Shown piece by piece: positions 13,184 to 62,543 of a stretch of DNA of 64,000 nucleotides. The notes beneath the pieces are model-generated. The model was not told the origin of the DNA, did not search any database, and saw nothing but the letters and a program-made list of their open reading frames with translations. The position numbers and the translations under genes were made by a program. This DNA is from Arhodomonas aquaeolei DSM 8974 (GTDB lineage Bacteria > Pseudomonadota > Gammaproteobacteria > Nitrococcales > Nitrococcaceae). The stretch lies in assembly GCF_000374645.1 (NCBI RefSeq), contig NZ_KB894802.1:1924-65923 (forward strand), written 5' to 3'. Position 1 is the stretch's first letter. Every line of letters begins with the position of its first letter.

Positions 13184-14005
13184 ATGTATTCGGGAGAACA
13201 AAAACCCCGTTCGCAGCCGGTGACCGTCGCCCGGCTGCACCGCATGAAGCGTGAAGGCACCCCCATCGCCTGCCTGACCGCTTACGACTTCACCCTGGCC
13301 AGCGCGGAGGACGCCGCGGGCGTCGACGTCATGCTGGTGGGGGATTCCCTGGGCAATGTCATGCAGGGCCGCAAGACCACCCTGCCGGTGACGGTGGACG
13401 AGATCGTCTACCACACCCGGTGCGTGACCGCCGCCTCCCCCGGCGCGCTGGTCATGGCCGACATGCCGTTCATGAGCTATCCCGACGTGCCCACGGCGCT
13501 CCACAACGCCGGCCGCCTGATGAAGGAGGGCGGTGCGCAGATGATCAAGCTCGAGGGCGCCGGTGATCAGGCCGGCGTGGTCGCTGCGCTGGCGGGTGCG
13601 GGCGTGCCGGTGTGCGGCCACCTCGGGCTGCAGCCCCAGCTGGTGCACAAGATCGGCGGCTACCGCGTGCAGGGCCGCGACAGCGAGACCGCCGAGCGCA
13701 TGGTGGAGGACGCCCTGGCGCTGGAGCGTGCCGGCGCCGACATGCTGCTCGTGGAGTGTATCCCGGCGGCGCTGGCCGGGCGGCTGACCCGGGAGCTCAC
13801 CATCCCGCTGATCGGTATCGGCGCGGGCCCGCACTGCGACGGCCAGATGCTCGTCCTCCAGGACATGCTCGGCGTCACCCGGGGCCGGCCGCCGAAGTTC
13901 TCCCGCGACTTCATGCCCGAGGCGGGCAGCATCCCCGCGGCGCTGGCGGCCTACGTCGCCGCGGTCCGCGAGCATCGCTTCCCCACGGACGAGCACAGCT
14001 TCTAG
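13184..14005 (+). CDS. panB: Ketopantoate hydroxymethyltransferase
   Basis: Converts alpha-ketoisovalerate to ketopantoate with methylene-tetrahydrofolate, the first committed step to pantothenate. The 273-aa protein has TAYDFTLA, VGDSLGNVMQG with the Mg-binding Asp, EGAG/VCGHLGLQPQ, and the catalytic Glu region VECIP. It is preceded by GGGAGTGAGGGT before ATG. First of three consecutive pantothenate genes. Confidence 0.98.
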   Translation: MYSGEQKPRSQPVTVARLHRMKREGTPIACLTAYDFTLASAEDAAGVDVMLVGDSLGNVMQGRKTTLPVTVDEIVYHTRCVTAASPGALVMADMPFMSYPDVPTALHNAGRLMKEGGAQMIKLEGAGDQAGVVAALAGAGVPVCGHLGLQPQLVHKIGGYRVQGRDSETAERMVEDALALERAGADMLLVECIPAALAGRLTRELTIPLIGIGAGPHCDGQMLVLQDMLGVTRGRPPKFSRDFMPEAGSIPAALAAYVAAVREHRFPTDEHSF

Positions 14006-14048
14006 CGTTCGCCGGCAGGCGGGCGCCCGACGGAACACGGGGCATCCC

Positions 14049-14897
14049 ATGCACATCATCAACAACGTCACCGAGCTTCGCGCCCAGGTCCGTGCCTGGC
14101 GGGACGCCCGCGAGGAGGTCGGCCTGGTGCCCACCATGGGCAATCTCCACGGCGGGCACATGACCCTCGTGGACGAGGCCCGCGAGCGCAGCGACCGCGT
14201 GGTGGTGAGCATCTTCGTCAATCCGACGCAGTTCGGTCCGGAGGAGGACTTCGACGCCTACCCACGCACCCTGGAGTCGGACTGCGAGCAGCTCGCCGGG
14301 GCCGGCGTGGACGTCGTCTTCGCGCCCACCGTGGAGGAGATGTACCCCGGGGGCGGCGGTCTCTCCACCGTGGTGGACGTCCCGGCGCTGTCCGGCATCC
14401 TCTGCGGCGCGACCCGGCCGGGGCATTTCCAGGGCGTCGCCACCGTGGTGGCGAAGCTGCTCAATGTGGTCGCCCCGGATATGGCGGTGTTCGGGCGCAA
14501 GGACTATCAGCAGCTCATGGTCATCCGCCGCATGGCGCGGGATCTCAACATGCCGGTGCAGATCGTCGGTGCGCCGGTGGCGCGGGAGTCCGACGGCCTC
14601 GCCATGAGCTCGCGTAACGTCTACCTAGGTGAGGACGAGCGTGCCCGCGCGCCGGCGCTCAATCGGGCGCTGCGGGATGCGGCGGCACGGCTCGCCGCCG
14701 GCGAGCGGGACTTTGCCGCGATCGAGGCCGCCGGCAGCGAGGCCATCGCCGAGGCGGGCTTCCGCCCGGACTACTTCAGGATCCGCCGGCCCGGGGATCT
14801 CGGCGACCCCACCGGCTCGGAGGAGGAGCTGATCGTCCTCGGCGCGGGCTGGCTCGGCCGGGCACGGCTCATCGACAATGTCGCCGTCCGGCTCTAG
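14049..14897 (+). CDS. panC: Pantothenate synthetase
   Basis: ATP-dependent condensation of pantoate with beta-alanine. The 282-aa protein shows the nucleotidyl-transferase motifs PTMGNLHGGH (HxGH), SIFVNPTQFGPEEDF, GATRPGHFQGV, FGRKDYQQL and the KMSK-like SDGLAMSSRNVYL. It lies 43 bp after panB. Confidence 0.98.
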   Translation: MHIINNVTELRAQVRAWRDAREEVGLVPTMGNLHGGHMTLVDEARERSDRVVVSIFVNPTQFGPEEDFDAYPRTLESDCEQLAGAGVDVVFAPTVEEMYPGGGGLSTVVDVPALSGILCGATRPGHFQGVATVVAKLLNVVAPDMAVFGRKDYQQLMVIRRMARDLNMPVQIVGAPVARESDGLAMSSRNVYLGEDERARAPALNRALRDAAARLAAGERDFAAIEAAGSEAIAEAGFRPDYFRIRRPGDLGDPTGSEEELIVLGAGWLGRARLIDNVAVRL

Positions 14898-15002
14898 CGT
14901 CCTGACGCGGGTGTTCGCTGCGCCCCAGGTCGCCGGTTCCTGTCAGGGCCGGCCGCGGTCATCAGGCCGGATCGCATCACCCCTTACCCCGGAGGGTTTC
15001 CC

Positions 15003-15383
15003 ATGTATCTGAGCATGCTCAAGTGCAAGCTCCACCAGGCCCGCGTGACCCATACCGAGCTGGAGTACGAGGGCTCCTGCGCGATCGACGCGGACCTCCT
15101 CGACGCCGCGGGGATCCGTGAGAACGAGGAGGTCCACGTCTACAACATCGCCAACGGCGAGCGTTTCTCGACGTACGCTATCCTCGGCGAACGCGGCTCG
15201 CGGATCATCTCGCTCAACGGTGCCGCCGCCCACAAGGCGAACGTCGGCGACCGCGTGATCATCTGCGCCTACGCCCTCATGGACGACGCCGAAGCCGCGG
15301 AGCACGCGCCCACCCTCGTTTACTGCGACGCGGACAACCGTATCGCCGGCACGCGCAACGCGGTCCCCGCCCAGGTCGCCTGA
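15003..15383 (+). CDS. panD: Aspartate 1-decarboxylase proenzyme
   Basis: Makes beta-alanine from aspartate for PanC. The 126-aa proenzyme has the self-cleavage site Gly24-Ser25 (YEGSC), which yields the N-terminal pyruvoyl group of the alpha chain, and the NGAAAHKA motif. The RBS is CCCCGGAGGG upstream of ATG. It completes panB-panC-panD. Confidence 0.98.
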
Positions 15384-15767: not shown

Positions 15768-16094
15768 TCAACCGGGCAGTGTCACCGCCAGCGCCAGCAG
15801 CCGGAAGGACAGGGACTTGCCGTGGCCGTCGAGGTTGAGCGCGCCGTTGACGCCGCCCTGGAGGACCGCGTCGATGACGAGGTTCATCCCCGCGAGCTGC
15901 GGGAGGAGGTGGCGGCGTACCCGCGTGGCGCCGCGATGGGCGAACGTCTCGAGCACGCGCTGCTCGGTGACCTGTGCGACCACGGCGTCGTAGTCCGCGG
16001 GGTCGTAGACGAACAGCGCCAGGTTGAGCCGGTTGCCCTTGTCCCCGGCGCGGGCGTGGGCGATCTCGTGGAGCGTGACGCGGCGCGCCGTCAT
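15768..16094 (-). CDS. AtuA-related C-terminal-type protein
   Basis: This 108-aa protein matches the small domain that is the C-terminal part of, or a separate partner to, AtuA/DUF1446 proteins. Motifs are LHEIAHARAGDKGNRLNLALFVYDP at the N-terminus and ALNLDGHGKSLSFRLL near the end. Biochemical role unknown. Its ATG overlaps the stop of the upstream AtuA gene (ATGA), which suggests the two act as one complex. It is the last gene of the four-gene minus-strand operon. Confidence 0.85.
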   Translation of the reverse strand: MTARRVTLHEIAHARAGDKGNRLNLALFVYDPADYDAVVAQVTEQRVLETFAHRGATRVRRHLLPQLAGMNLVIDAVLQGGVNGALNLDGHGKSLSFRLLALAVTLPG

Positions 16095-17491
16095 CGGCCT
16101 GTCTCCGTATCCGTGGCCGCCTCCCCGGCGGCGTCGAGGGTGTGTACGCGGGTCGGCACCTGGGCACGGGGGACGAGGAATGACACCGTCGCCACCCGCC
16201 GGCGGTGATGGCGGCGCACGCCGCCGCCGCCGGCCGGGCCGGTGCAGTAGAGCGCGAGCAGCTCCTGGGTGGCCGTCTCCACCGCGGCGCGCCCGGTGTG
16301 GGCGACGGCGAGGCGAAGGCGTACCTCCGCCGGCGCGGTCGGCGGCGCTTCGGACTGCAGGGTGCCGTCGTCGTCGCCGAACACGCTCACGTGGCCGATG
16401 TAGTCGAACCGGCAGCGCAGGTCCGCCGGCAGGCGGCGCGCGAAACGCTCGCGCAGGGTCTCTGCCGCGAGCCGTGCGCGGGGGAGGGCGTTGGGCCCGG
16501 CGTAGGTGATCCCGGCCTCGCCCTGCCAGCCGGCGTCGTAGCACACCGTGGTCTTGAGGCGTTCCGGGGCGGGGCGGCCGCGCACGCCGGTGACCGCGAC
16601 CCGGTCCGGTCCCTGCTGGTTTACCTCGACGCCGGAGAGGTCGATCACCACGTCCGGTGTGACGTAGCCGGCGGGGTCATGGATCTCGTAGAGCAGCTGC
16701 TCGCGCACGGTCTGCGTCGTCACCAGGCCGCCGCTGTCGCGGGGCTTGGTGACGACGATGCCGCCGTCGCGATCGACCTCGACGATGGGGTAGCCCAGCA
16801 CCGCCAGGCCCGGGACGTCCTTGTAGCCGGGGTCGGCGAAGTAGCCGCCGGTGACCTGTGCGCCGCACTCCACCAGGTGGCCGGCGAGGGCCCCGGCGGC
16901 GAGGCGGTCCCAGTCGTCCCAGGGCCAGCCGAAGTGGTTCACCAGCGGTGCCAGCGCCAGCGCCGGATCCGCGACTCGGCCGGTCACGACCACGTCGCCT
17001 CCCCGTGCCAGGGCCTCGGCCAGCGGCGGTGCGCCCAGATAGGCGTTCGCCGCGATGATGGCGTCGCGCGCCGGCAGCGATTCGTGCTCGGCGTCCCAGG
17101 GGGCGAGGTCGAGCGTGGCCAGACGCTCGCGGAGGTCGTCACCCTCGACCCGGGCCATGCGGCCCTGCGGGTGGTCCGCGGCGCGCATCAGCGCGGCGAT
17201 GCGCTCGCATGCCGCGCGGGGGTTGGCGGCGCCGAAGTTGCCGAGCACCGGGATGCCGTGATCGAGGCAACGGTCCAGCACCGGCGACAGGTAATCGGCC
17301 AGCAGCGGTTCGTAGCCCGCACCGGGATCGGCGTCCATGGCACGCTGGGCGGCGGCCAGGGTCCGCTCCCCCAGGGTCTCGAATATCAGCGCACAAGGCT
17401 CGCCGCGGCGGACGAGCTCGTCCACCACCGCCTCGGCGGCGTCGGTGCGGTCGCCGGAGAAGCCGGCGCCGCAGCCCACGAGAAACGTCAT
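16091..17491 (-). CDS. Acyclic terpene utilization AtuA family protein (DUF1446)
   Basis: This 466-aa protein shows DUF1446 features: N-terminal GCGAGFSGDR, VLGNFGAANP, VVTGRVADPALALAPL, CGAQVTGGYFADPGYKDVP, YPIVEVDRDGG and the TKPRDSGGLVTTQTVREQLLYEIHDP block. The family is named after Pseudomonas AtuA of citronellol/geraniol catabolism, but none of the acyl-CoA genes of that pathway are nearby, so the substrate here is unknown. The ATG at 17491 overlaps the permease stop by four bases, and the 3' end overlaps the small AtuA partner gene by four bases. Confidence 0.88.
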   Translation of the reverse strand: MTFLVGCGAGFSGDRTDAAEAVVDELVRRGEPCALIFETLGERTLAAAQRAMDADPGAGYEPLLADYLSPVLDRCLDHGIPVLGNFGAANPRAACERIAALMRAADHPQGRMARVEGDDLRERLATLDLAPWDAEHESLPARDAIIAANAYLGAPPLAEALARGGDVVVTGRVADPALALAPLVNHFGWPWDDWDRLAAGALAGHLVECGAQVTGGYFADPGYKDVPGLAVLGYPIVEVDRDGGIVVTKPRDSGGLVTTQTVREQLLYEIHDPAGYVTPDVVIDLSGVEVNQQGPDRVAVTGVRGRPAPERLKTTVCYDAGWQGEAGITYAGPNALPRARLAAETLRERFARRLPADLRCRFDYIGHVSVFGDDDGTLQSEAPPTAPAEVRLRLAVAHTGRAAVETATQELLALYCTGPAGGGGVRRHHRRRVATVSFLVPRAQVPTRVHTLDAAGEAATDTETGR

Positions 17492-19404
17492 CGGCCGTCT
17501 CCTGAGTTGGTGATTTCCGCCATGTCCCCCGGGTGTGCCGGGGTGTTGTCCGGGGTGTCGCGCCGGCGCCGCGCAATTACGAGCAGCGCCGCGAGCAGGG
17601 CCAGTGCGGCGAGGGTGCTCGGCCATCCCGGTGCGAGGGCGAGTGCCACGGCGGCGAGCAGCACTGCCGTGCCCGCGGCCCGGCCCAGAGCCGGGCGGAT
17701 CCCGGAGAGCAGGGTCGCGAAGGCGAGCACGAAGGCCAGGCCCTGGCAGGCGGCCAGGACGACGTCACCGGCGTTGCCGAAGCCGGCCAGCGCCGGGTAG
17801 GCAAGCATCACGAACGGGATGACATACGTAGCCGCGCCGAGGCGCACAGCCTGGCCCGCCGCGGGCAGCCAGTTCGTCCCGGCGATGCCGGAGGCGACGA
17901 ATACCGCCACGCACACCGGCGGCGTGATCACGGAAATCGTGGCGAAGTAGAACACGAACAGATGGGCGACCAGCGGCTGGAACCCGAGCTCGGTGAGCGC
18001 CGGGGCGAGCACCGAGGAGACCAGCACGTAGGCCGCTGTCGTGGGGATGCCCATCCCCATGATCAGGCAGATGGCGGCGACGATGGCCGCCACCAGCAGC
18101 CCGGAGTGACCGGCCAGGTCGACGATCAGCCCGGCCAGGGTGACGCCGATCCCGGTCATGTTGATCATCGCCACCAGGATCTGGGCGCCGGCGAGCAGCA
18201 CGCCGATGATCACCATGCCGCGGCCGGCGTCGGCGATGCCGCTGGTCAGCCGTGCGGCGATGGTCCGCACCGGCATGCCCGCGTGCACCGAGAAGCCCAC
18301 GAAGGTCGCCACCACCGCGACCACGCCGAAGAATGCCGAGGTCTGGATGGAGTGGCCGGTGAGCACGCCGTAGAACAGCCCGCCCAGTGCCGCGGCGATG
18401 GGCATGAGTCGCCCGGGGCGCAGGATGGCTGGCCAGGCGGGCATGTCCGCCTCCGGCACCACCGGCAGGCCGCGGCGCAGCGCCAGCAGGTGGACGGTGA
18501 GGAATACCGCGACGTAGAACAGCACCGCAGGCAGTATCGAGGCGAGCACGATGCGTACGTAGCTCTCGCCGAGCACCTCCGCCATCACGAATGCCGCCGC
18601 CCCGAGGATCGGCGGCGCGATCTGGCCGCCGGTGGAGGCGACGGCCTCGACCGCCGCGGCCAGGGCCGGCGGGTAGCGCAGCCGCTTCATCAGCGGAATG
18701 GTGAAATTGCCCGTCGTCGCCACATTGGCCACGGCGCTGCCGCTGACCATCGCGAACAGGCTCGACGCCACCGTCGCGACCTTGGCCGCGCCGCCGGGGC
18801 TGCGCCCGCCGAGGCGCACGGAGGCGTCGATGAAGGTCTGGCCGCCGCCGGTATGCAGCAGGAGGCTGCCGAAGAGCACGAACGCGGCGATGGTGGTCGC
18901 GGCGACGCCCACGAGCAGCCCCCACACGCCCAGGTCGCCCAGGAACAGCGTCTCGGTGACGAACGCTGGCCCGAAGCCCCGGTGCGCCAGAGCCCCGGGG
19001 AGCAGGTTGCCGAAGAACGCGTATGCCAGGCCGACCACCACCAGCGACGGGAACAGCCAGCCGATGGCGCGCCGGGAGACCTCCAGGATCGCGGCGACCA
19101 GCCCGGCCGTCATCACCATGTCCGTGGGCGTCGCCCAGGGCAGCTCGGTGAGGATGCGCTCGTGGTTGAGCGCCACGTACCCGCAGCCGGCGACCGCCAC
19201 CGCGCCCAGCAGCACGTCGACGGCGAGCGTCGCCGGGCGCAGGCGCGGGCCCGCCGGCAGCGGGTAGACGGCCAGGCCGAGCAGGAGGACCAGGGCCAGG
19301 AACACCGGCCGCTGCACCAGGCTCGGGAACTGGCCGAACGCCGAGGTGTAGAGGATGAAGCCGCCCAGCACGAGGGCCAGGGCGGTCGTGAGTCGCTCGC
19401 GCAT
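17488..19404 (-). CDS. TRAP transporter fused permease (4TM-12TM), TAXI type
   Basis: A 638-aa integral membrane protein with about 16-18 hydrophobic segments, fusing the small DctQ-like and large DctM-like TRAP permease parts. The large-part motifs GSAVANVATTGNFTIPLMKR, ASTGGQIAPPILGAAAF and MGMGIPTTAAYVL are clear. It takes up an organic solute delivered by a periplasmic TAXI binding protein using the Na+ gradient. It lies 27 bp after the binding-protein gene and overlaps atuA by four bases. Confidence 0.95.
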   Translation of the reverse strand: MRERLTTALALVLGGFILYTSAFGQFPSLVQRPVFLALVLLLGLAVYPLPAGPRLRPATLAVDVLLGAVAVAGCGYVALNHERILTELPWATPTDMVMTAGLVAAILEVSRRAIGWLFPSLVVVGLAYAFFGNLLPGALAHRGFGPAFVTETLFLGDLGVWGLLVGVAATTIAAFVLFGSLLLHTGGGQTFIDASVRLGGRSPGGAAKVATVASSLFAMVSGSAVANVATTGNFTIPLMKRLRYPPALAAAVEAVASTGGQIAPPILGAAAFVMAEVLGESYVRIVLASILPAVLFYVAVFLTVHLLALRRGLPVVPEADMPAWPAILRPGRLMPIAAALGGLFYGVLTGHSIQTSAFFGVVAVVATFVGFSVHAGMPVRTIAARLTSGIADAGRGMVIIGVLLAGAQILVAMINMTGIGVTLAGLIVDLAGHSGLLVAAIVAAICLIMGMGIPTTAAYVLVSSVLAPALTELGFQPLVAHLFVFYFATISVITPPVCVAVFVASGIAGTNWLPAAGQAVRLGAATYVIPFVMLAYPALAGFGNAGDVVLAACQGLAFVLAFATLLSGIRPALGRAAGTAVLLAAVALALAPGWPSTLAALALLAALLVIARRRRDTPDNTPAHPGDMAEITNSGDGR

Positions 19405-19431
19405 GGTCGTGCTCCCGGCGTGCGGCCGCGG

Positions 19432-20397
19432 TCAGCGGGGCTGGAGCTGGTCGGGGATGTCCATGCCCTGCTCGCGGTAGTAGCGTGCCGCGCCGGGGTG
19501 CAGGGGGACGGTGCCGTAGTCCATCGTCATCGCCCCGAGGTCGGCGCCCTCCAGCGACTTGAACGCGTTGGCCTGCGGCCCCTGGTGCTCCATCACGGCC
19601 TTGACGATGCGGTAGGCGGCCTCGTCGCTCAGCCCCGGACGGGCGTGCACGGCGACGCCGAAGGCCCAGGTGGCGTAGGCGGGGATGCCTTCCGCGGCCC
19701 CGGCGGGGACGTCCACCACGCCGATGTCCGGCATCTCCTCGCGCAGGGTGCGTTTCTGCGCGCCGGTCAGCGAGAGCACGCGGATGGGGGTGAAGGTGGC
19801 GATGTCCAGTGACGAGCCGTCGAGGCGGTCACCCACCCCGGACTTGACGTAGCCATTGAGGCGGTTGTCCTTGATCGCGCTGACGATGTCGCTGGTGGAG
19901 CCGCGCACGTAGTCCGGCGAGATGCCCAGGGTCCGCATCACCGCCTCGGTGGTCTTCTCGGTGGCCGAGCCGGTGATGCCCGGATTCAGCCGGCGGCCGT
20001 CGAGGCCGGCGAGTGTCTCGATGCCGGCGTCCTTGCGCACGACGACATTCTGCGGCGCGACCGTATAGACCCAGAGTAGCCGGCTGTCGACGGCGTGCCC
20101 GTCGAAGGCACCGGTGCCCTTGTAGGCGTGATAGCCCACATTGGTGGTGACCAGGCCGAGGTCGACCTGCCCGCGGGAGAGCCGCCGGAGGTTGTCCACC
20201 GTGGCGCCGGTCTCCACCACCGAGGCGTTGACGCCCTCGGCGTAGTCGTTGATGACCTGATTGACGGCGACGAAATAGCTGTAGTGGCTGGATGACGTGG
20301 ACGTCGAGCCGATGAGTATCTCGTCGGCGCCCAGCGCGCCCTGGCTCAGGGTGAGCGCGGCCATTGCGGCCGCCGCGGCAGCGGTCAGCTTGCGCAT
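19432..20397 (-). CDS. TAXI family TRAP transporter solute-binding protein
   Basis: This 321-aa periplasmic binding protein has an N-terminal signal peptide (MRKLTAAAAAAMAALTLSQG-ALGA). TAXI-family features are the N-terminal IGSTSTSSSHY segment, LVTTNVGYHAYKG and NPGITGSATEKTTEAVM. The ligand is unknown; TAXI proteins often bind glutamate, glutamine or other organic acids. First gene of the operon, divergent from the LysR-type regulator across an AT-rich 171-bp region. Confidence 0.95.
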   Translation of the reverse strand: MRKLTAAAAAAMAALTLSQGALGADEILIGSTSTSSSHYSYFVAVNQVINDYAEGVNASVVETGATVDNLRRLSRGQVDLGLVTTNVGYHAYKGTGAFDGHAVDSRLLWVYTVAPQNVVVRKDAGIETLAGLDGRRLNPGITGSATEKTTEAVMRTLGISPDYVRGSTSDIVSAIKDNRLNGYVKSGVGDRLDGSSLDIATFTPIRVLSLTGAQKRTLREEMPDIGVVDVPAGAAEGIPAYATWAFGVAVHARPGLSDEAAYRIVKAVMEHQGPQANAFKSLEGADLGAMTMDYGTVPLHPGAARYYREQGMDIPDQLQPR

Positions 20398-20502
20398 GAT
20401 CTCCTCCTCCGCCGGCGCCGTGCGTGTGCGGTGCCGGCCGTTATGGCGTTGGCGGTGTGCCGGTGTGCGGCACGGAGGTATCGTTGCGGCGGGCCGCTAT
20501 AT

Positions 20503-20531
20503 TTGTCTAATTTATTATTTCTGAATAATGT
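20503..20531 (+). promoter_or_regulatory. Putative lysR promoter with overlapping inverted repeat
   Basis: TTGTCT (20503-20508), 17 bp, then TAATGT (20526-20531) reads as a promoter for the LysR gene. It overlaps ATTATT-TCTG-AATAAT (20514-20529). The AT-rich patch stands out in the GC-rich surroundings. Such a site between lysR and its divergent target operon fits the usual LTTR control arrangement. Confidence 0.5.
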
Positions 20532-20568
20532 TTTGTAAAATAAAACAATAAGGCGCGGGGGCGAGGAG

Positions 20569-21465
20569 ATGACACCGACCGTCAAGCAGCTGCGGGCCTT
20601 CGTGGTCTCCGCCCAGTCGGACAGCTTCGCCGAGGCGAGCGAACGGCTGCACCTCTCGCAGCCGGCGCTGAGCCTTGCCATCCGCAAGCTGGAGAGCGGC
20701 GTGGGCGGTGCGCTGTTCGCGCGCTCGGGGCGTCACATGACGCTGACGCCGGAGGGGCAGGCCTTTCTGCCGGTGGCCGTGCGGCTGCTCAACGACTGGA
20801 CCGAGGCGTTCGCGGACCTCACCGAGCTGTTCTCCAAGCAACGGGGCAAGGTCACCGTCGCGGCGCTGCCGACGCTTGCGGCGGGCCTGCTGCCGCCGGT
20901 GATCTCGACGTTCGGGGAGCGCCACCCACGGGTCAATCTCAGCGTGCACGACGTCCTCGCCGACGAGGTGGGGCAGCGCGTGCGTGAAGGGCGGGCGGAC
21001 ATCGGGGTGTCGGTGCCGCCGCTGGACTCGGACGATCTCGCCTTTGAGCCGCTGCTGCTCGACCGCTACGTGGCCGTTTGCCCGGAAGGCCATCCGCTGC
21101 TGGTGGGGGAGACGGTGGCGTGGGCGGCGCTGGCGGGGGTTCCGTTCATCGGCATCAACCGGTTGTCGAGTGCGCGCCAGGCGATCGACCGCGTCATGGC
21201 CGAGGTCGGCGGCACGCTGGATATCCGGTGCGAGGTCAACCAGATCGCCACGGTGGGCCGGATGGTCGCCGCCGGCATGGGGATCAGCGTCCTGCCGGCG
21301 CTCAGTTTCCGGCAGATCGCCGCCGCCGGCCTTGGTCACCGGCCCCTGGTCGAGCCGGTCATCGAACGCCGGCTCGGTATCATTACCCGGCGGCGCCAGC
21401 CCCTGTCCGCCGCGGCATCGGCGCTGCATGCGCTGCTGCGCGAACGCGCCGCCGAGGCCCCATGA
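20569..21465 (+). CDS. LysR-family transcriptional regulator
   Basis: A 298-aa LTTR: an N-terminal winged helix-turn-helix (TVKQLRAFVVSAQSDSFAEA, LHLSQPALSLAIRKLE) followed by a periplasmic-binding-like effector domain from about residue 90. It is divergent from the TAXI/TRAP/AtuA operon and probably controls it in response to a small molecule, perhaps the imported substrate (inference from position). Confidence 0.93.
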   Translation: MTPTVKQLRAFVVSAQSDSFAEASERLHLSQPALSLAIRKLESGVGGALFARSGRHMTLTPEGQAFLPVAVRLLNDWTEAFADLTELFSKQRGKVTVAALPTLAAGLLPPVISTFGERHPRVNLSVHDVLADEVGQRVREGRADIGVSVPPLDSDDLAFEPLLLDRYVAVCPEGHPLLVGETVAWAALAGVPFIGINRLSSARQAIDRVMAEVGGTLDIRCEVNQIATVGRMVAAGMGISVLPALSFRQIAAAGLGHRPLVEPVIERRLGIITRRRQPLSAAASALHALLRERAAEAP

Positions 21466-58896: not shown

Positions 58897-60258
58897 TCAC
58901 GCGCGCGCCGCGATCCGCCGGGCGATGTCGTTGTGCCGACGAACCAGTGCGGGGAGGTCCACGTCCGTGAGCGCGCCGTCGCGGACCCGGAGGCGCCCGT
59001 TGATCAGGCTGAGTGCGACCTGCGGTGGGCGGCAGAACACGAGCGCGGCGAGCGGGTCGTGGACCGCGCCGCCGGCGAGCGGCAGGGTGTCGAGCCGGTA
59101 GCCGACGATATCCGCGGCCATGCCGGGGGCCAGGTGGCCGATGTCATTGCGGCCGAGCACCGCGGCCCCGCCGCGGGTGGCGAGGCTCAGTGTCTCCACG
59201 GCGCCCATGGCGTCGGGGCCGTCCACGAGGCGGTGCAGCAGCATCGCCTGGCGTGCCTCGCCGAGCATGTCCGAGCCGTCGTTGGATGCGGAGCCGTCCA
59301 CCCCCAGGCCGACGCGGGCGCCGGCCCGGCGGAGCGCGCGCACCGGGGCGACGCCCGAGCCCAGGCGCATGTTGGAGCTCGGGCAGTGCGCCACGCCGCA
59401 GCGGTGTGCGCCGAGGCGGCGGATTTCGTCGTCTTCCGGGTGCACCATGTGCGCGAACCAGACGTCCTCGCCGCACCAGCCCAGGTCCTCGGCGTACTCC
59501 ACCGGGGTGCGGCCGAAGCGCTCGCGGCAGTAGGCCGTCTCGTCGCGGGTTTCGGCGAGGTGGGTGTGGCAGTGCACGCCGTAGTGTCGGGCCACCTCCA
59601 GACTCTCGCGCATCAGCGTCTGCGATACGGAGAAGGGGGAGCACGGTGCCAGGGCGATGCGGGTCATCGCGTAGTCCGCGTCGTCGTGGTGGGTCTCGAT
59701 CACCCGCTGGCTGTCGGCGAGGATCGCGGTCTCCGACTCGACCACGGCGTCCGGCGGCAGGCCGCCGTCCGACTCGCCCACCGACATGGACCCGCGCCCG
59801 GCGTGGAAGCGCAGGCCCATCTCCCGGGCGGCGTGGATCTGGTCGTCCAGGCGGGCGCCGTTGGGCCAGAGGTAGGTGTGGTCGGCGGCGGTGGTGCAGC
59901 CGGAGAGCATGAGCTCGGCGGCGGCGATCCGCGTGCTCACGTCCATGGCCTCCGGATCGAGGCGTGCCCACACCGGGTAGTGGCTCACCAGCCAGTTGAA
60001 CAGCCCCGCGTCCTGCCCCGCCGGCAGGTTCCGGGTCAGGGTCTGGTAGAAGTGGTGATGGGTGTTCACCAGCCCGGGGATGAGGATGTGTCCGCGGGCG
60101 TCGATCACCCGGTCGGCATCGGTGCCGATGCGCGCCGCGGGTCCCACCGCGGCGATGCGGTTGTCCTCGATACGGATGCTGGCGTCGTGGAGCACGCCGC
60201 CGTCGTCGCCCTCCATGGTCGCGACGGCCGCGGCGTTGTCGAGGATCAGGCTCGTCAT
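58897..60258 (-). CDS. 8-oxoguanine deaminase
   Basis: Amidohydrolase converting 8-oxoguanine to urate. The 453-aa protein has the metal motif HILIPGLVNTHHHFYQT, HCHTHLAET, WFAHMVHPEDDEI, VAHCPSSNMRLGSG and the Asp in GLGVDGSASNDGSDML, all features of the 8-oxoguanine deaminase group near TrzA/AtzA. It is followed by gntR and preceded by puuD (7-bp gap), so its urate product feeds the next enzymes. Confidence 0.9.
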   Translation of the reverse strand: MTSLILDNAAAVATMEGDDGGVLHDASIRIEDNRIAAVGPAARIGTDADRVIDARGHILIPGLVNTHHHFYQTLTRNLPAGQDAGLFNWLVSHYPVWARLDPEAMDVSTRIAAAELMLSGCTTAADHTYLWPNGARLDDQIHAAREMGLRFHAGRGSMSVGESDGGLPPDAVVESETAILADSQRVIETHHDDADYAMTRIALAPCSPFSVSQTLMRESLEVARHYGVHCHTHLAETRDETAYCRERFGRTPVEYAEDLGWCGEDVWFAHMVHPEDDEIRRLGAHRCGVAHCPSSNMRLGSGVAPVRALRRAGARVGLGVDGSASNDGSDMLGEARQAMLLHRLVDGPDAMGAVETLSLATRGGAAVLGRNDIGHLAPGMAADIVGYRLDTLPLAGGAVHDPLAALVFCRPPQVALSLINGRLRVRDGALTDVDLPALVRRHNDIARRIAARA

Positions 60259-60265
60259 GCCGCTG

Positions 60266-61462
60266 TCACTCCTTGTTTCGCTCGATCCACGCGCCGAGGG
60301 CGGCACGCTCCTCGTCGGTGATGCCGGTGATGTTGCCGAGCGGCATGTAGTGGCTGTCGACGGCGACGCGCTTGATATCCGCGCGGTGTTTGCGGATCTG
60401 TGCGGCGGTCTCCAGCACGATGCCGGCGGGCGGGCTGGCGTATCCCGAGAATGAGGGCTCCGGGGCGTGGCAGGTGGTGCAGCGTTCGTCGATGATCGTG
60501 TGCACCTGCTCGAAGCTGACCTCGCTCACTGTCTCGCCGGTGCCGTCGCCCGCCAGCATCGAGCGGACCGGCGGGCTCAGCACCGCGACCACCGCGGCGA
60601 AGGCCAGCGCACTCGCGGGCAGTATCAGCCGCTTCACCGCACCGGGCCGGTGGCGGATGTTGAAGTAGTGGCGCACGGCGACGCTGATGATCGACACGGC
60701 CGCGAGGATCGCCCAGTTCCACGCCGCCGCGTAGGTGCCGGGGAAGTGGTTGCTGATCATGATGAACAGCACCGGCAGGGTGAGGTAGTTGTTGTGGCGG
60801 CTGCGCAGCAGGCCGTTCTTGCCGTAGCGCGGATCCGGCGAGCGGCCCTCCTCCATGGCCCGCACCAGCTCCTTCTGCGAGGGGATGATGACGAAGAACA
60901 CGTTCGCCACCATGCACGTGCCGATCGCCGCGCCCACGTGGATGTAGGCGGCGCGGCCGCTGAACACGGTGCTCAGTCCCCACGCCAGGAGCACGATGAG
61001 TACGGTGATCAGCGCCGCGAGCAGCCGCGGGCGCTCGCCCAGCCAGCGGCAGAGGCCGTCGTAGACAAGCCAGGCGGCCACCAGCGTGGCGATGCCAATG
61101 GCCACCGCCTGCCAGGGCTGGAGGGCGGCGACCGCCGGATTGACCATCATCGTCTGCGCGTTGAGGTAGTAGACGATGATCAGCAGGGTGAAACCGCTGA
61201 TCCAGGTGAAGTAGGCCTCCCACTTGAACCAGTGCAGGGTCTCGGGCAGCTGCGGCGGTGCCACCGCGTACTTCTCGACGAAGTAGAAGCCGCCGCCGTG
61301 CACGGCCCAGAGATTGCCGGCGATCCCCGCGGGCTTGCCCGTGCGTTCGAGGTTGTTCTCCAGCCAGTTGAAGTAGAACGACGCCCCGATCCAGGCGATG
61401 CCCACGATCAGGTGGATCCAGCGAACCAGCAGGTTCGCCCACTCCATCAGATGCGCTTCCAT
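60266..61462 (-). CDS. puuD: Membrane-bound urate hydroxylase PuuD
   Basis: Oxidises urate to 5-hydroxyisourate and passes electrons to the respiratory chain. The 398-aa protein has about eight N-terminal transmembrane segments (DUF989 region: WIHLIVGIAWIGASFYFNWLEN, AVHGGGFYFVEKY) and a C-terminal cytochrome c domain with the haem motif CTTCH near residue 328 and a distal Met in YMPLGN. This fused form is the bacterial PuuD type. Confidence 0.95.
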   Translation of the reverse strand: MEAHLMEWANLLVRWIHLIVGIAWIGASFYFNWLENNLERTGKPAGIAGNLWAVHGGGFYFVEKYAVAPPQLPETLHWFKWEAYFTWISGFTLLIIVYYLNAQTMMVNPAVAALQPWQAVAIGIATLVAAWLVYDGLCRWLGERPRLLAALITVLIVLLAWGLSTVFSGRAAYIHVGAAIGTCMVANVFFVIIPSQKELVRAMEEGRSPDPRYGKNGLLRSRHNNYLTLPVLFIMISNHFPGTYAAAWNWAILAAVSIISVAVRHYFNIRHRPGAVKRLILPASALAFAAVVAVLSPPVRSMLAGDGTGETVSEVSFEQVHTIIDERCTTCHAPEPSFSGYASPPAGIVLETAAQIRKHRADIKRVAVDSHYMPLGNITGITDEERAALGAWIERNKE

Positions 61463-61501
61463 ATCCGAGGGTCCCCGTGAGTCTCGTGCGGCCGGCGGTC
61501 T

Positions 61502-61855
61502 TTAACTGCCCCGGTAGGTGGTGTAGCTGTAGGGTGAGATGAGCAGCGGCACGTGATAGTGCTCGTCGGCATGGGCGATGCCGAAACGCACCACCACTTC
61601 GTCGAGGAAGCGGGGCGCGTCGCCGGGCAGGCCCAGCCGGTCGAAGTACTCGCCGACCTGGAAGACGAGCTGGTACTGCCCGGCCCGGAAGGCGTCGCCT
61701 TCGAGCAGGGGGCCATCCACGCGGCCGTCGTCGTTGCTCACGGCGTCGGTCAGCGGGGTCAGCACGTTGTCCTCGACCCGTGCCAGCGCGATGCGGATCC
61801 CGGAGCCGGGGCGGCCGTGGGCGGTATCCAGTATATGGGTGGTGAGTCGGCCCAT
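61502..61855 (-). CDS. uraH: 5-hydroxyisourate hydrolase
   Basis: This 117-aa transthyretin-like enzyme hydrolyses 5-hydroxyisourate to OHCU. It shows LTTHILDTAHGRPGSGI at the N-terminus (catalytic His) and the C-terminal hallmark YRGS with PLLISPYSYTTYRGS. First gene of the minus-strand set uraH-puuD-deaminase, divergent from uraD. Confidence 0.97.
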   Translation of the reverse strand: MGRLTTHILDTAHGRPGSGIRIALARVEDNVLTPLTDAVSNDDGRVDGPLLEGDAFRAGQYQLVFQVGEYFDRLGLPGDAPRFLDEVVVRFGIAHADEHYHVPLLISPYSYTTYRGS

Positions 61856-61938
61856 GGCACTCTCCTCCTCGTTATTCGCTCGTCAGCGGGTGGGTGACGG
61901 TGGTCCCGGTGGCCGTCCGTTGGGAGGTATAAAACACG

Positions 61939-61969
61939 TTGTCGACAAACGCAAACAAAAGTGTATACA
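61939..61969 (+). promoter_or_regulatory. uraD promoter overlapped by two palindromes
   Basis: TTGTCG (61939-61944), 17 bp, then TGTATA (61962-61967) reads as a promoter for uraD. The palindrome TTGTCGACAA (61939-61948) covers the -35 and TGTATACA (61962-61969) covers the -10. Both resemble FadR/GntR-type operator cores (GTnnAC), so repression by the adjacent GntR protein is likely. The same region lies upstream of the divergent uraH. Confidence 0.55.
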
Positions 61970-62006
61970 TTTTTGGCCGGCTGGTGATGCCAGCCGGAAA
62001 TGAGTT

Positions 62007-62543
62007 ATGGGGGAAGTCATGGCGGAAGGCGTACTGGAACCGAGACCGAGTCAGCTCAACGAAGACGATTTCGTCGCCCATTACGGCGACGTCTACGAGC
62101 ACTCGCCGTGGATTGCCCGGCAGGCGTACCGGCGCGGCCTGAGCGTCACCGAGGACACCCCGGATTCGCTCGCGGCGACGATGGCGGCGGTGCTCAATGC
62201 TGCCTCCGCGGAGGACCAGCTCGAGGTAATCCGCGCCCACCCGGACCTCGCGGGCAAGGCGGCGGTGCAGGGCGGGCTGACCGACGACTCCGCCCGGGAG
62301 CAGGCCGGGGCGGGCCTGGATCAGTGCACGCAGGAGGAGTACGAACGCTTCCAGCGGCTCAACCGGGAGTACTGGGAGCGGTTCAACATGCCCTTCGTGA
62401 TGGCGGTCAAGGGCCATGACCGCGGGACGATCCTGGAGTCCTTCGGGCGCCGCCTGGAGAACGGCCCGGACGAGGAGCGGCGCACCGCCGTGGCGGAGAT
62501 CAACCGCATCGCGCGGCTGCGCCTGCTCGACCGGGTGACGTGA
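62007..62543 (+). CDS. uraD: OHCU decarboxylase
   Basis: 2-oxo-4-hydroxy-4-carboxy-5-ureidoimidazoline decarboxylase, completing the path from urate to (S)-allantoin. The 178-aa protein shows VYEHSPWIARQAY (catalytic His), IRAHPDLAGKAA, LTDDSAREQAGAGLDQCTQEE and FNMPFVMAVKGHDRGTIL. ATG 62019, with GGGGGAAG just upstream, is an equally good start. Divergent from uraH across the promoter region; convergent with folD without a gap. Confidence 0.95.
   Translation: MGEVMAEGVLEPRPSQLNEDDFVAHYGDVYEHSPWIARQAYRRGLSVTEDTPDSLAATMAAVLNAASAEDQLEVIRAHPDLAGKAAVQGGLTDDSAREQAGAGLDQCTQEEYERFQRLNREYWERFNMPFVMAVKGHDRGTILESFGRRLENGPDEERRTAVAEINRIARLRLLDRVT

Follow-up and report, generated by a model that had tools for sequence, protein, structure and literature searches.

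Proteins of the AtuA family, which we take to be the family formerly named DUF1446, include both the AtuA of acyclic terpene utilisation and the large subunit of the citramalate lyase CmlAB, a two-subunit enzyme whose small subunit has 105 aa. Here we describe a four-gene operon of Arhodomonas aquaeolei DSM 8974 in which an AtuA gene and a small partner gene follow the genes of a TAXI-type TRAP transporter. The operon lies in a stretch of 64,000 nucleotides of contig NZ_KB894802.1 (positions 1,924 to 65,923), which is called the window below and whose coordinates are used throughout.

The reaction of CmlAB is taken here from its PDB names: entry 9evf is titled 'Citramalate lyase - ADP - pyruvate complex', and chain B of entry 9erq is labelled both 'DUF4387 domain-containing protein' and 'Citramalate lyase, subunit B (cmlB)'. 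A literature search found no paper on the CmlAB structures, and none with DUF4387 or PF07287. For the terpene pathway, a passage of PMC4847356 proposes that AtuA is an acetate-releasing lyase acting on a 3-hydroxy-3-substituted glutaryl skeleton. In anaerobic naphthalene degradation, ThnQ and ThnS, the products of two genes each annotated as AtuA-like lyase, are said in a section of PMC12016498 to cleave a tertiary alcohol together, on the basis of unpublished results. Besides CmlAB, two members of the family are called lyases at tertiary alcohols, one tentatively and one from unpublished work, and the cleavage of beta-hydroxy acids at a tertiary carbinol appears to be a common theme. For Enterobacteriaceae that have glutamate mutase, a part of PMC4682846 also reports a DUF1446 gene following that of methylaspartate ammonia-lyase.

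The locus consists of the following features:

19432..20397, minus strand: TAXI-family TRAP solute-binding protein, 321 aa (PF16868, 172.8 bits; TIGR02122, 165.5 bits, cut-off 84.35)
17488..19404, minus strand: fused TRAP permease, 638 aa (PF06808, 259.7 bits; TIGR02123, 479.3 bits, cut-off 320.65)
16091..17491, minus strand: large subunit of the AtuA family, 466 aa, putative catalytic chain of a C-C lyase (PF07287, 450 bits, cut-off 22.8)
15768..16094, minus strand: AtuA_ferredoxin partner of 108 aa, putative small subunit (PF23544, 102.3 bits, cut-off 27)
20569..21465, plus strand: divergent LysR-type regulator, 298 aa (PF00126, 69.5 bits; PF03466, 176.1 bits)
20398..20568, no strand: divergent intergenic region of 171 bp with an A+T-rich stretch, holding candidate promoters and a candidate LysR site (partially conserved in relatives)

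The original prediction had joined the first four of these genes into one minus-strand operon (20397-15768), and both the families and the coordinates agree with it. As it also held, the last three genes overlap by four bases each, with the letters ATGA at 17488-17491 (permease and AtuA) and 16091-16094 (AtuA and partner); the binding-protein and permease genes are separated by 27 nt (19405-19431). We set the start of AtuA at 17491 rather than at 17626, the start of the longer open reading frame, because relatives align from 17491; the PF07287 match then covers residues 5-450. The predicted divergent LysR gene, carrying both domains of that family, is found 171 bp away. In the window, no acyl-CoA, carboxylase or terpene gene was seen adjoining the operon, again as claimed: its flanks are panD (PF02261) with panB- and panC-like genes (identified by eye) on one side and queG (PF08331) on the other. 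The pan genes, at 13184-15383 on the plus strand, are convergent with the operon just past its end.

Both proposed subunits match CmlAB in predicted structure. The AlphaFold models have a pLDDT of 90.9 (AtuA) and 90.7 (partner). The AtuA model matches CmlA (9evf_A) with a Foldseek E-value of 4.3e-25 and a VIA Z-score of 33.1 over 421 residues (root-mean-square deviation 3.6, 18% identity), and the partner model matches CmlB (9evf_B) with an E-value of 6.9e-4 and a Z-score of 11.6 over 100 of 105 residues (deviation 2.5, 17% identity). Each of these is the sole PDB match of its model at E <=0.001; the next rows have a Z-score of 11.2 over 90 residues for AtuA and of 8.0 for the partner. For the large subunit, sequence comparison points weakly the same way: the AtuA profile finds 9erq_A with an E-value of 1.2e-6, and a 174-residue stretch of CmlA matches PF07287 with an E-value of 2.4e-13. 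CmlA and two CmlA-like proteins share 19 of the 74 core positions of the family, keeping the motifs GRxxD, EC and YExxxP and residue K313 (the kept core residues include G171, R172, D175, E208, C209, Y268, E269, P273 and K313); 9erq_A, taken by itself, agrees at 25/74 core and 56/392 other positions. Searching the PDB with the partner gave nothing useful: the best E-value was 0.19 for its single sequence and 0.93 for a profile. Its link to CmlB rests on the fold comparison and on a profile pair, in which hhalign aligned the partner profile with the DUF4387 set at E-values of 1.3e-4 and 6.8e-5 (probability 54 and 63%; 94 and 78 columns). The partner carries the motifs GDKG and D-x-x-GK. The hhalign values, like the neighbour and CoA-transferase findings below, are given without a chance level.

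Nevertheless, the family of its small subunit keeps the pair out of CmlAB in the strict sense. Its large subunit has the CmlA fold in the predicted model, but in Pfam the partner matches only PF23544 at E 0.001 rather than DUF4387 (PF14330), and the window genome has no PF14330 match; the window AtuA also lies on another branch of the AtuA tree than CmlA. In one locus (L028:314-1018, minus strand; loci are given by our own numbers), a gene directly after a CmlA-like gene joins a DUF4387 (CmlB-like) domain to a glyoxalase-type domain.

Since both subunits match the CmlAB fold and family members are called lyases, AtuA and its partner most likely form an acetate-releasing lyase, which would split an imported beta-hydroxy acid into acetate and a keto acid. 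In the mechanism that we propose, the TAXI protein and the fused permease would import a small beta-hydroxy di- or tricarboxylate, and AtuA and the partner, as a heteromeric CmlAB-like C-C lyase, would detach the carboxymethyl group from the carbinol carbon by a retro-aldol cleavage of the bond joining them, yielding acetate and a keto acid. The keto acid would enter general metabolism, so that no dedicated CoA pathway would be needed beside the operon, and the LysR protein would control the unit. We consider it probable, if only just, that the whole unit is such a self-contained uptake-and-cleavage module, with a 3-hydroxy-3-substituted glutarate as the likeliest type of substrate. If a single compound is to be named, our best guess would be 3-hydroxy-3-methylglutarate, which would give acetoacetate and acetate. 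This compound is reported in bacterial extracts and culture media, with no uptake route given in the sections concerned (PMC4213383, PMC6630823); a part of the latter paper finds it in rhizobial culture media, among compounds later consumed or transformed.

The same chemistry acting on citramalate, with acetate and pyruvate as products, would make the pair an additional form of citramalate lyase that has a dedicated importer. This would agree with CmlAB being the closest pair with a solved structure and, since acetate and pyruvate call for no additional enzyme, with the loci that contain only importer and regulator. However, the window pair belongs to another tree branch than CmlA and has another small-subunit family, and the CoA-transferase/thiolase and BKACE neighbours described below misfit pyruvate; we therefore regard citramalate as an unlikely substrate.

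To compare the locus with its relatives, we scanned named genomes and retained, out of 580 confirmed stretches, the best 80 (the named loci below); 22 further loci were picked by hand, many of them for want of TctC or TAXI. The resulting 102 loci comprise at most 100 distinct ones (L033 = L042, L193 = L094); a stop inside the stretch led us to omit L109 and L102 from a family scan, and the AtuA alignment does not include L112. The AtuA tree of 95 proteins was a quick run with SH-aLRT support only, and 57 of its 95 rows lie outside the named groups. In this tree, AtuA proteins of the four-gene type form one group (support 94) and those of operons with a dehydrogenase and BKACE another (100), and the two are joined with support 100; eight long and three CmlA-like proteins lie apart from this split form.

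The terpene-pathway AtuA is alike in having PF07287 and PF23544. It differs in that a single chain (~600 aa) contains both AtuA and the ferredoxin-like domain and in that its substrate is a CoA ester, whereas in the window AtuA and the partner are on separate genes of 466 and 108 codons, with no such chain, and AtuA falls outside the group of eight long proteins (support 100), of which L037 is a single chain according to Pfam and L038 according to BLAST, the other six being judged by length. A linalool dehydratase/isomerase-like gene is near the long AtuA gene of L037, and acyl-CoA dehydrogenase and AMP-binding genes are near that of L038. These two loci also contain a dicarboxylate symporter-like gene and a DctP-type TRAP gene, respectively, so that an importer beside AtuA is no marker of the split form. 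Twenty-one residues that hardly vary, if at all, across the split form are rare or absent in the eight long proteins; nine of them are charged (R15, E38, R43, K224, E325, R338, D363, R391 and R393) and, in this one alignment, would suit a small, multiply charged substrate. With separate genes, a separate clade and no terpene, acyl-CoA or carboxylase neighbours seen, we reject a terpene role for the split form, and the role beyond terpene catabolism that had been put forward appears to be supported by homology and context.

By their description, ThnQ and ThnS resemble the window pair in being two genes; according to the same section of PMC12016498, they act on a CoA-bound cyclic substrate and belong to a long beta-oxidation-like cluster. 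AtuA/CmlA-type two-subunit lyases are already known, and what is new here is the split form with a dedicated importer.

The four-gene order is not peculiar to the window genome. The exact order of a divergent LysR gene, TAXI, permease, AtuA and partner was found in 12/80 named loci (L039-L050; Halomonas, Vreelandella and Aquisalimonas), and L051 and L052 keep the four-gene order with extra genes inserted. An order unique to this genome, which would have refuted the original prediction, is thus excluded, and since the arrangement recurs in other genera, it is no chance line-up. TAXI is present in 17 of the named loci, and the partner adjoins AtuA in 79 of the 80; it is also present in L109. A LysR-like gene lies upstream on the opposite strand in 57/80 (no more than 500 bp from AtuA in 38/80); in L039-L052 this gene is 57-73% identical to that of the window and has the same divergent place. 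In 19 loci, which come from 18 different genomes, the A+T-rich stretch of the intergenic region is partly conserved at the corresponding position, the window copy being among the more divergent ones.

Beyond the named loci, an AtuA match was found in 98/275 Halomonadaceae genomes. The 30 best loci of this family, at least five of which come from genomes already among the named ones, have the permease upstream in all 30 and the partner in 29; in L165, which lacks it, the contig stops 80 bases beyond the AtuA match and so cuts the locus off. In a sample of the phylum, 74/398 genomes match the AtuA of L052, long and CmlA-like forms included, and among the 30 best loci (the window included) the partner is present in 30, the permease in 6, TctC in 10 and a LysR gene within ~1.5 kb in 14. 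Within the window's own order, 8/54 genomes have an AtuA match, and besides the window only G027 is close (69%). One genome (G922) has two AtuA genes: one of the dehydrogenase/BKACE type (C14:31079-32425) and one 64% identical to the window AtuA (C1:214367-215710).

AtuA and its partner are the steady part of these loci, and the importers vary among TAXI-TRAP, TctC, CitMHS and ABC types. A TctC-like protein directly follows the pair in 41/80 named loci (PF03401 for the one tested), and TAXI or TctC occurs anywhere in the stretch in 67/80; of the 13 with neither, L110 has an ABC-type binding protein. Nine of the 22 hand-picked loci have a CitMHS-like symporter, which in L205 scores 416.6 bits with TIGR00784 (cut-off 259.7) and in both L205 and L035 matches PF03600. 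The CitMHS label needs three changes on the AtuA tree, and the other TAXI-linked rows need four; importer type therefore changes across the tree, so that the pair stays together while the uptake system switches.

These importers bear on another possible substrate. Acting on citrate or another tricarboxylate, the same lyase would be a CoA-independent citrate lyase producing oxaloacetate and acetate. Two of the importers beside the pair, TctC and the CitMHS of L205, are named for tricarboxylates, although such family names do not fix the ligand. In addition, the sole close relative of the window TAXI protein that stands without AtuA (L252, see below) is near TcuA and TcuB of tricarballylate use, both over their cut-offs; they lie beyond a regulator-like gene on the opposite strand, so that this link is one of nearness only. 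Moreover, a cell that runs the citric acid cycle already has a way to use citrate. We judge this reading improbable.

Gene groups found within 5.5 kb of AtuA in at least 10 of the 80 named loci are LysR, TctC, the partner, the permease, TAXI, an abhydrolase group (12/80; PF20091 for the L069 copy, the one tested) and a mixed group of genes that by eye are dehydrogenase-like and ABC-binding-protein-like (10/80). Because some genes escape the gene-calling script, these counts are lower bounds. Within this distance, no gene group of the named loci stood out as a dedicated second enzyme. In some loci (e.g. L065, L069, L089 and L106), a large alpha/beta hydrolase follows the unit of AtuA, partner and TctC, and might free the acid from an ester.

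A few loci contain further enzymes that may give clues to the substrate. A 3-hydroxyacid dehydrogenase (HAD) gene lies between permease and AtuA in L051, L052, L207, L208 and L210; that of L051 matches PF02737/PF00725 and, among NCBIfam models, comes closest to carnitine dehydrogenases, though under cut-off. All of these loci except L051 also have a BKACE gene (PF05853 for L052). In L205, the order is CitMHS, AtuA, partner, CoA-transferase alpha and beta subunits and thiolase, and the alpha subunit scores 388.3 with the acetate CoA-transferase model NF007394 (cut-off 315). CoA-transferase and thiolase genes are also found within ~5 kb on the opposite strand in L035 and L110, and ~8 kb away in L098. 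Both kinds of neighbour fit a beta-keto acid as product. The window genome has three BKACEs elsewhere and one acetoacetyl-CoA synthetase over cut-off. On the opposite strand beyond the dehydrogenase-BKACE-AtuA operon of L210 (L210:3728-5751, plus strand), there are LeuC- and LeuD-type genes over cut-off and genes that by eye are TctA/TctB-like.

The sister operons also admit a different reading, in which AtuA and the partner are a hydratase, a dehydratase or another non-cleaving enzyme acting on the free acid, making in these operons the 3-hydroxy acid for dehydrogenase and BKACE. The 4-nt overlaps that tie HAD, BKACE and AtuA together in L207 and L208, and BKACE and AtuA in L210, are in line with it, as are the residues special to the split form; the members of the family with a stated reaction are, however, called lyases in PDB names and papers. 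This too seems improbable to us. As for the claim that AtuA and partner may carry out a complete reaction, the homology of both chains to CmlAB and the loci with only importer and regulator support it; the five sister operons do contain one or two further enzymes each.

The TAXI protein offers a separate line of evidence. Both it and the fused permease are over the cut-offs of the TAXI-TRAP models TIGR02122 and TIGR02123, but the AtuA-linked TAXI proteins have residues of their own. At 57 positions, a residue common to at least 95% of 24 AtuA-linked proteins, including R71, R72 and K185, occurs in at most one of six others (four more of the window genome, 1us4 and 9oz4). Part of this signature is shared descent, since most of the 24 are close relatives; its residues may line the ligand pocket. 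A census of the phylum sample, in which up to five candidates per genome were scored, found seven places with at least 56% identity, including the window, six of them just upstream of AtuA; the next best had 39%. The exception is G365 (L252), whose neighbours include a dehydrogenase-like gene (best models of HIBADH type, under cut-off) and an aldehyde dehydrogenase-like gene. The window genome has five TAXI proteins over cut-off and a single AtuA match.

The nearest PDB sequence to the window TAXI protein is 1us4 (E 6.2e-31), named a putative GluR0 ligand binding core and presumably binding glutamate. This would suit a unit importing glutamate, glutamine or a similar amino acid, with AtuA incidental; the 57-position signature, although found mostly in close relatives, and the AtuA link of six of the seven close TAXI proteins (the window included) argue against it, and we consider it very improbable.

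Several observations weigh against the acetate-releasing lyase that we prefer. The similarity to CmlA is remote (18% identity; profile E 1.2e-6), a common fold is no proof of a common reaction, the small subunit that goes with CmlA is of DUF4387 and not of PF23544, and the 21 positions special to the split form mean that substrate or chemistry may have moved. The isohexenylglutaryl-CoA lyase step is assigned to LiuE, not to AtuA, in a passage of PMC4097962. CoA-transferase and thiolase genes occur in only 3/102 loci, with one more at ~8 kb, a count without a chance level, and the window genome has no TIGR02428 CoA-transferase; 13 of the 80 named loci have neither TAXI nor TctC. Finally, the neighbours of a few relatives do not fit one substrate: HpaI-type aldolases (under cut-offs) beside AtuA in L053 and L087, histidinol-dehydrogenase-family genes (PF00815) beside AtuA and partner in L081 and L087, and thiamine pyrophosphate enzymes in L062 and L094. 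Given these varied neighbours, it is probable that the members of the subfamily do not all share one substrate. L081 and L087 also have genes of the short-chain dehydrogenase/reductase, D-2-hydroxyacid dehydrogenase or HpaI type, possibly as a variant for another substrate.

Elsewhere in the window, near its right end (58897-62543), there are genes that by eye look like those of purine or ureide catabolism.

A more specific proposal, which we offer tentatively and hold to be rather doubtful, is that the unit represents an undescribed module for the catabolism of 3-hydroxy-3-substituted glutarates as free acids: AtuA and the PF23544 partner would be a CoA-independent 3-hydroxy-3-methylglutarate acetate-lyase that yields acetoacetate and acetate, served by a dedicated but interchangeable importer. 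The module would be widespread in Pseudomonadota, and a sister form in halophiles would reach other beta-keto acids via a 3-hydroxyacid dehydrogenase and BKACE. AtuA-family genes are common, as the Halomonadaceae and phylum-sample counts indicate, yet the name of the family refers to terpene use. Linking the split form with the citramalate lyase structure, which was released recently, replaces this default label by a class of carboxylate lyases that can be tested against a short list of substrates. To our knowledge, few TAXI transporters have known ligands, and through the tie to AtuA one group of them would gain a ligand class as well.

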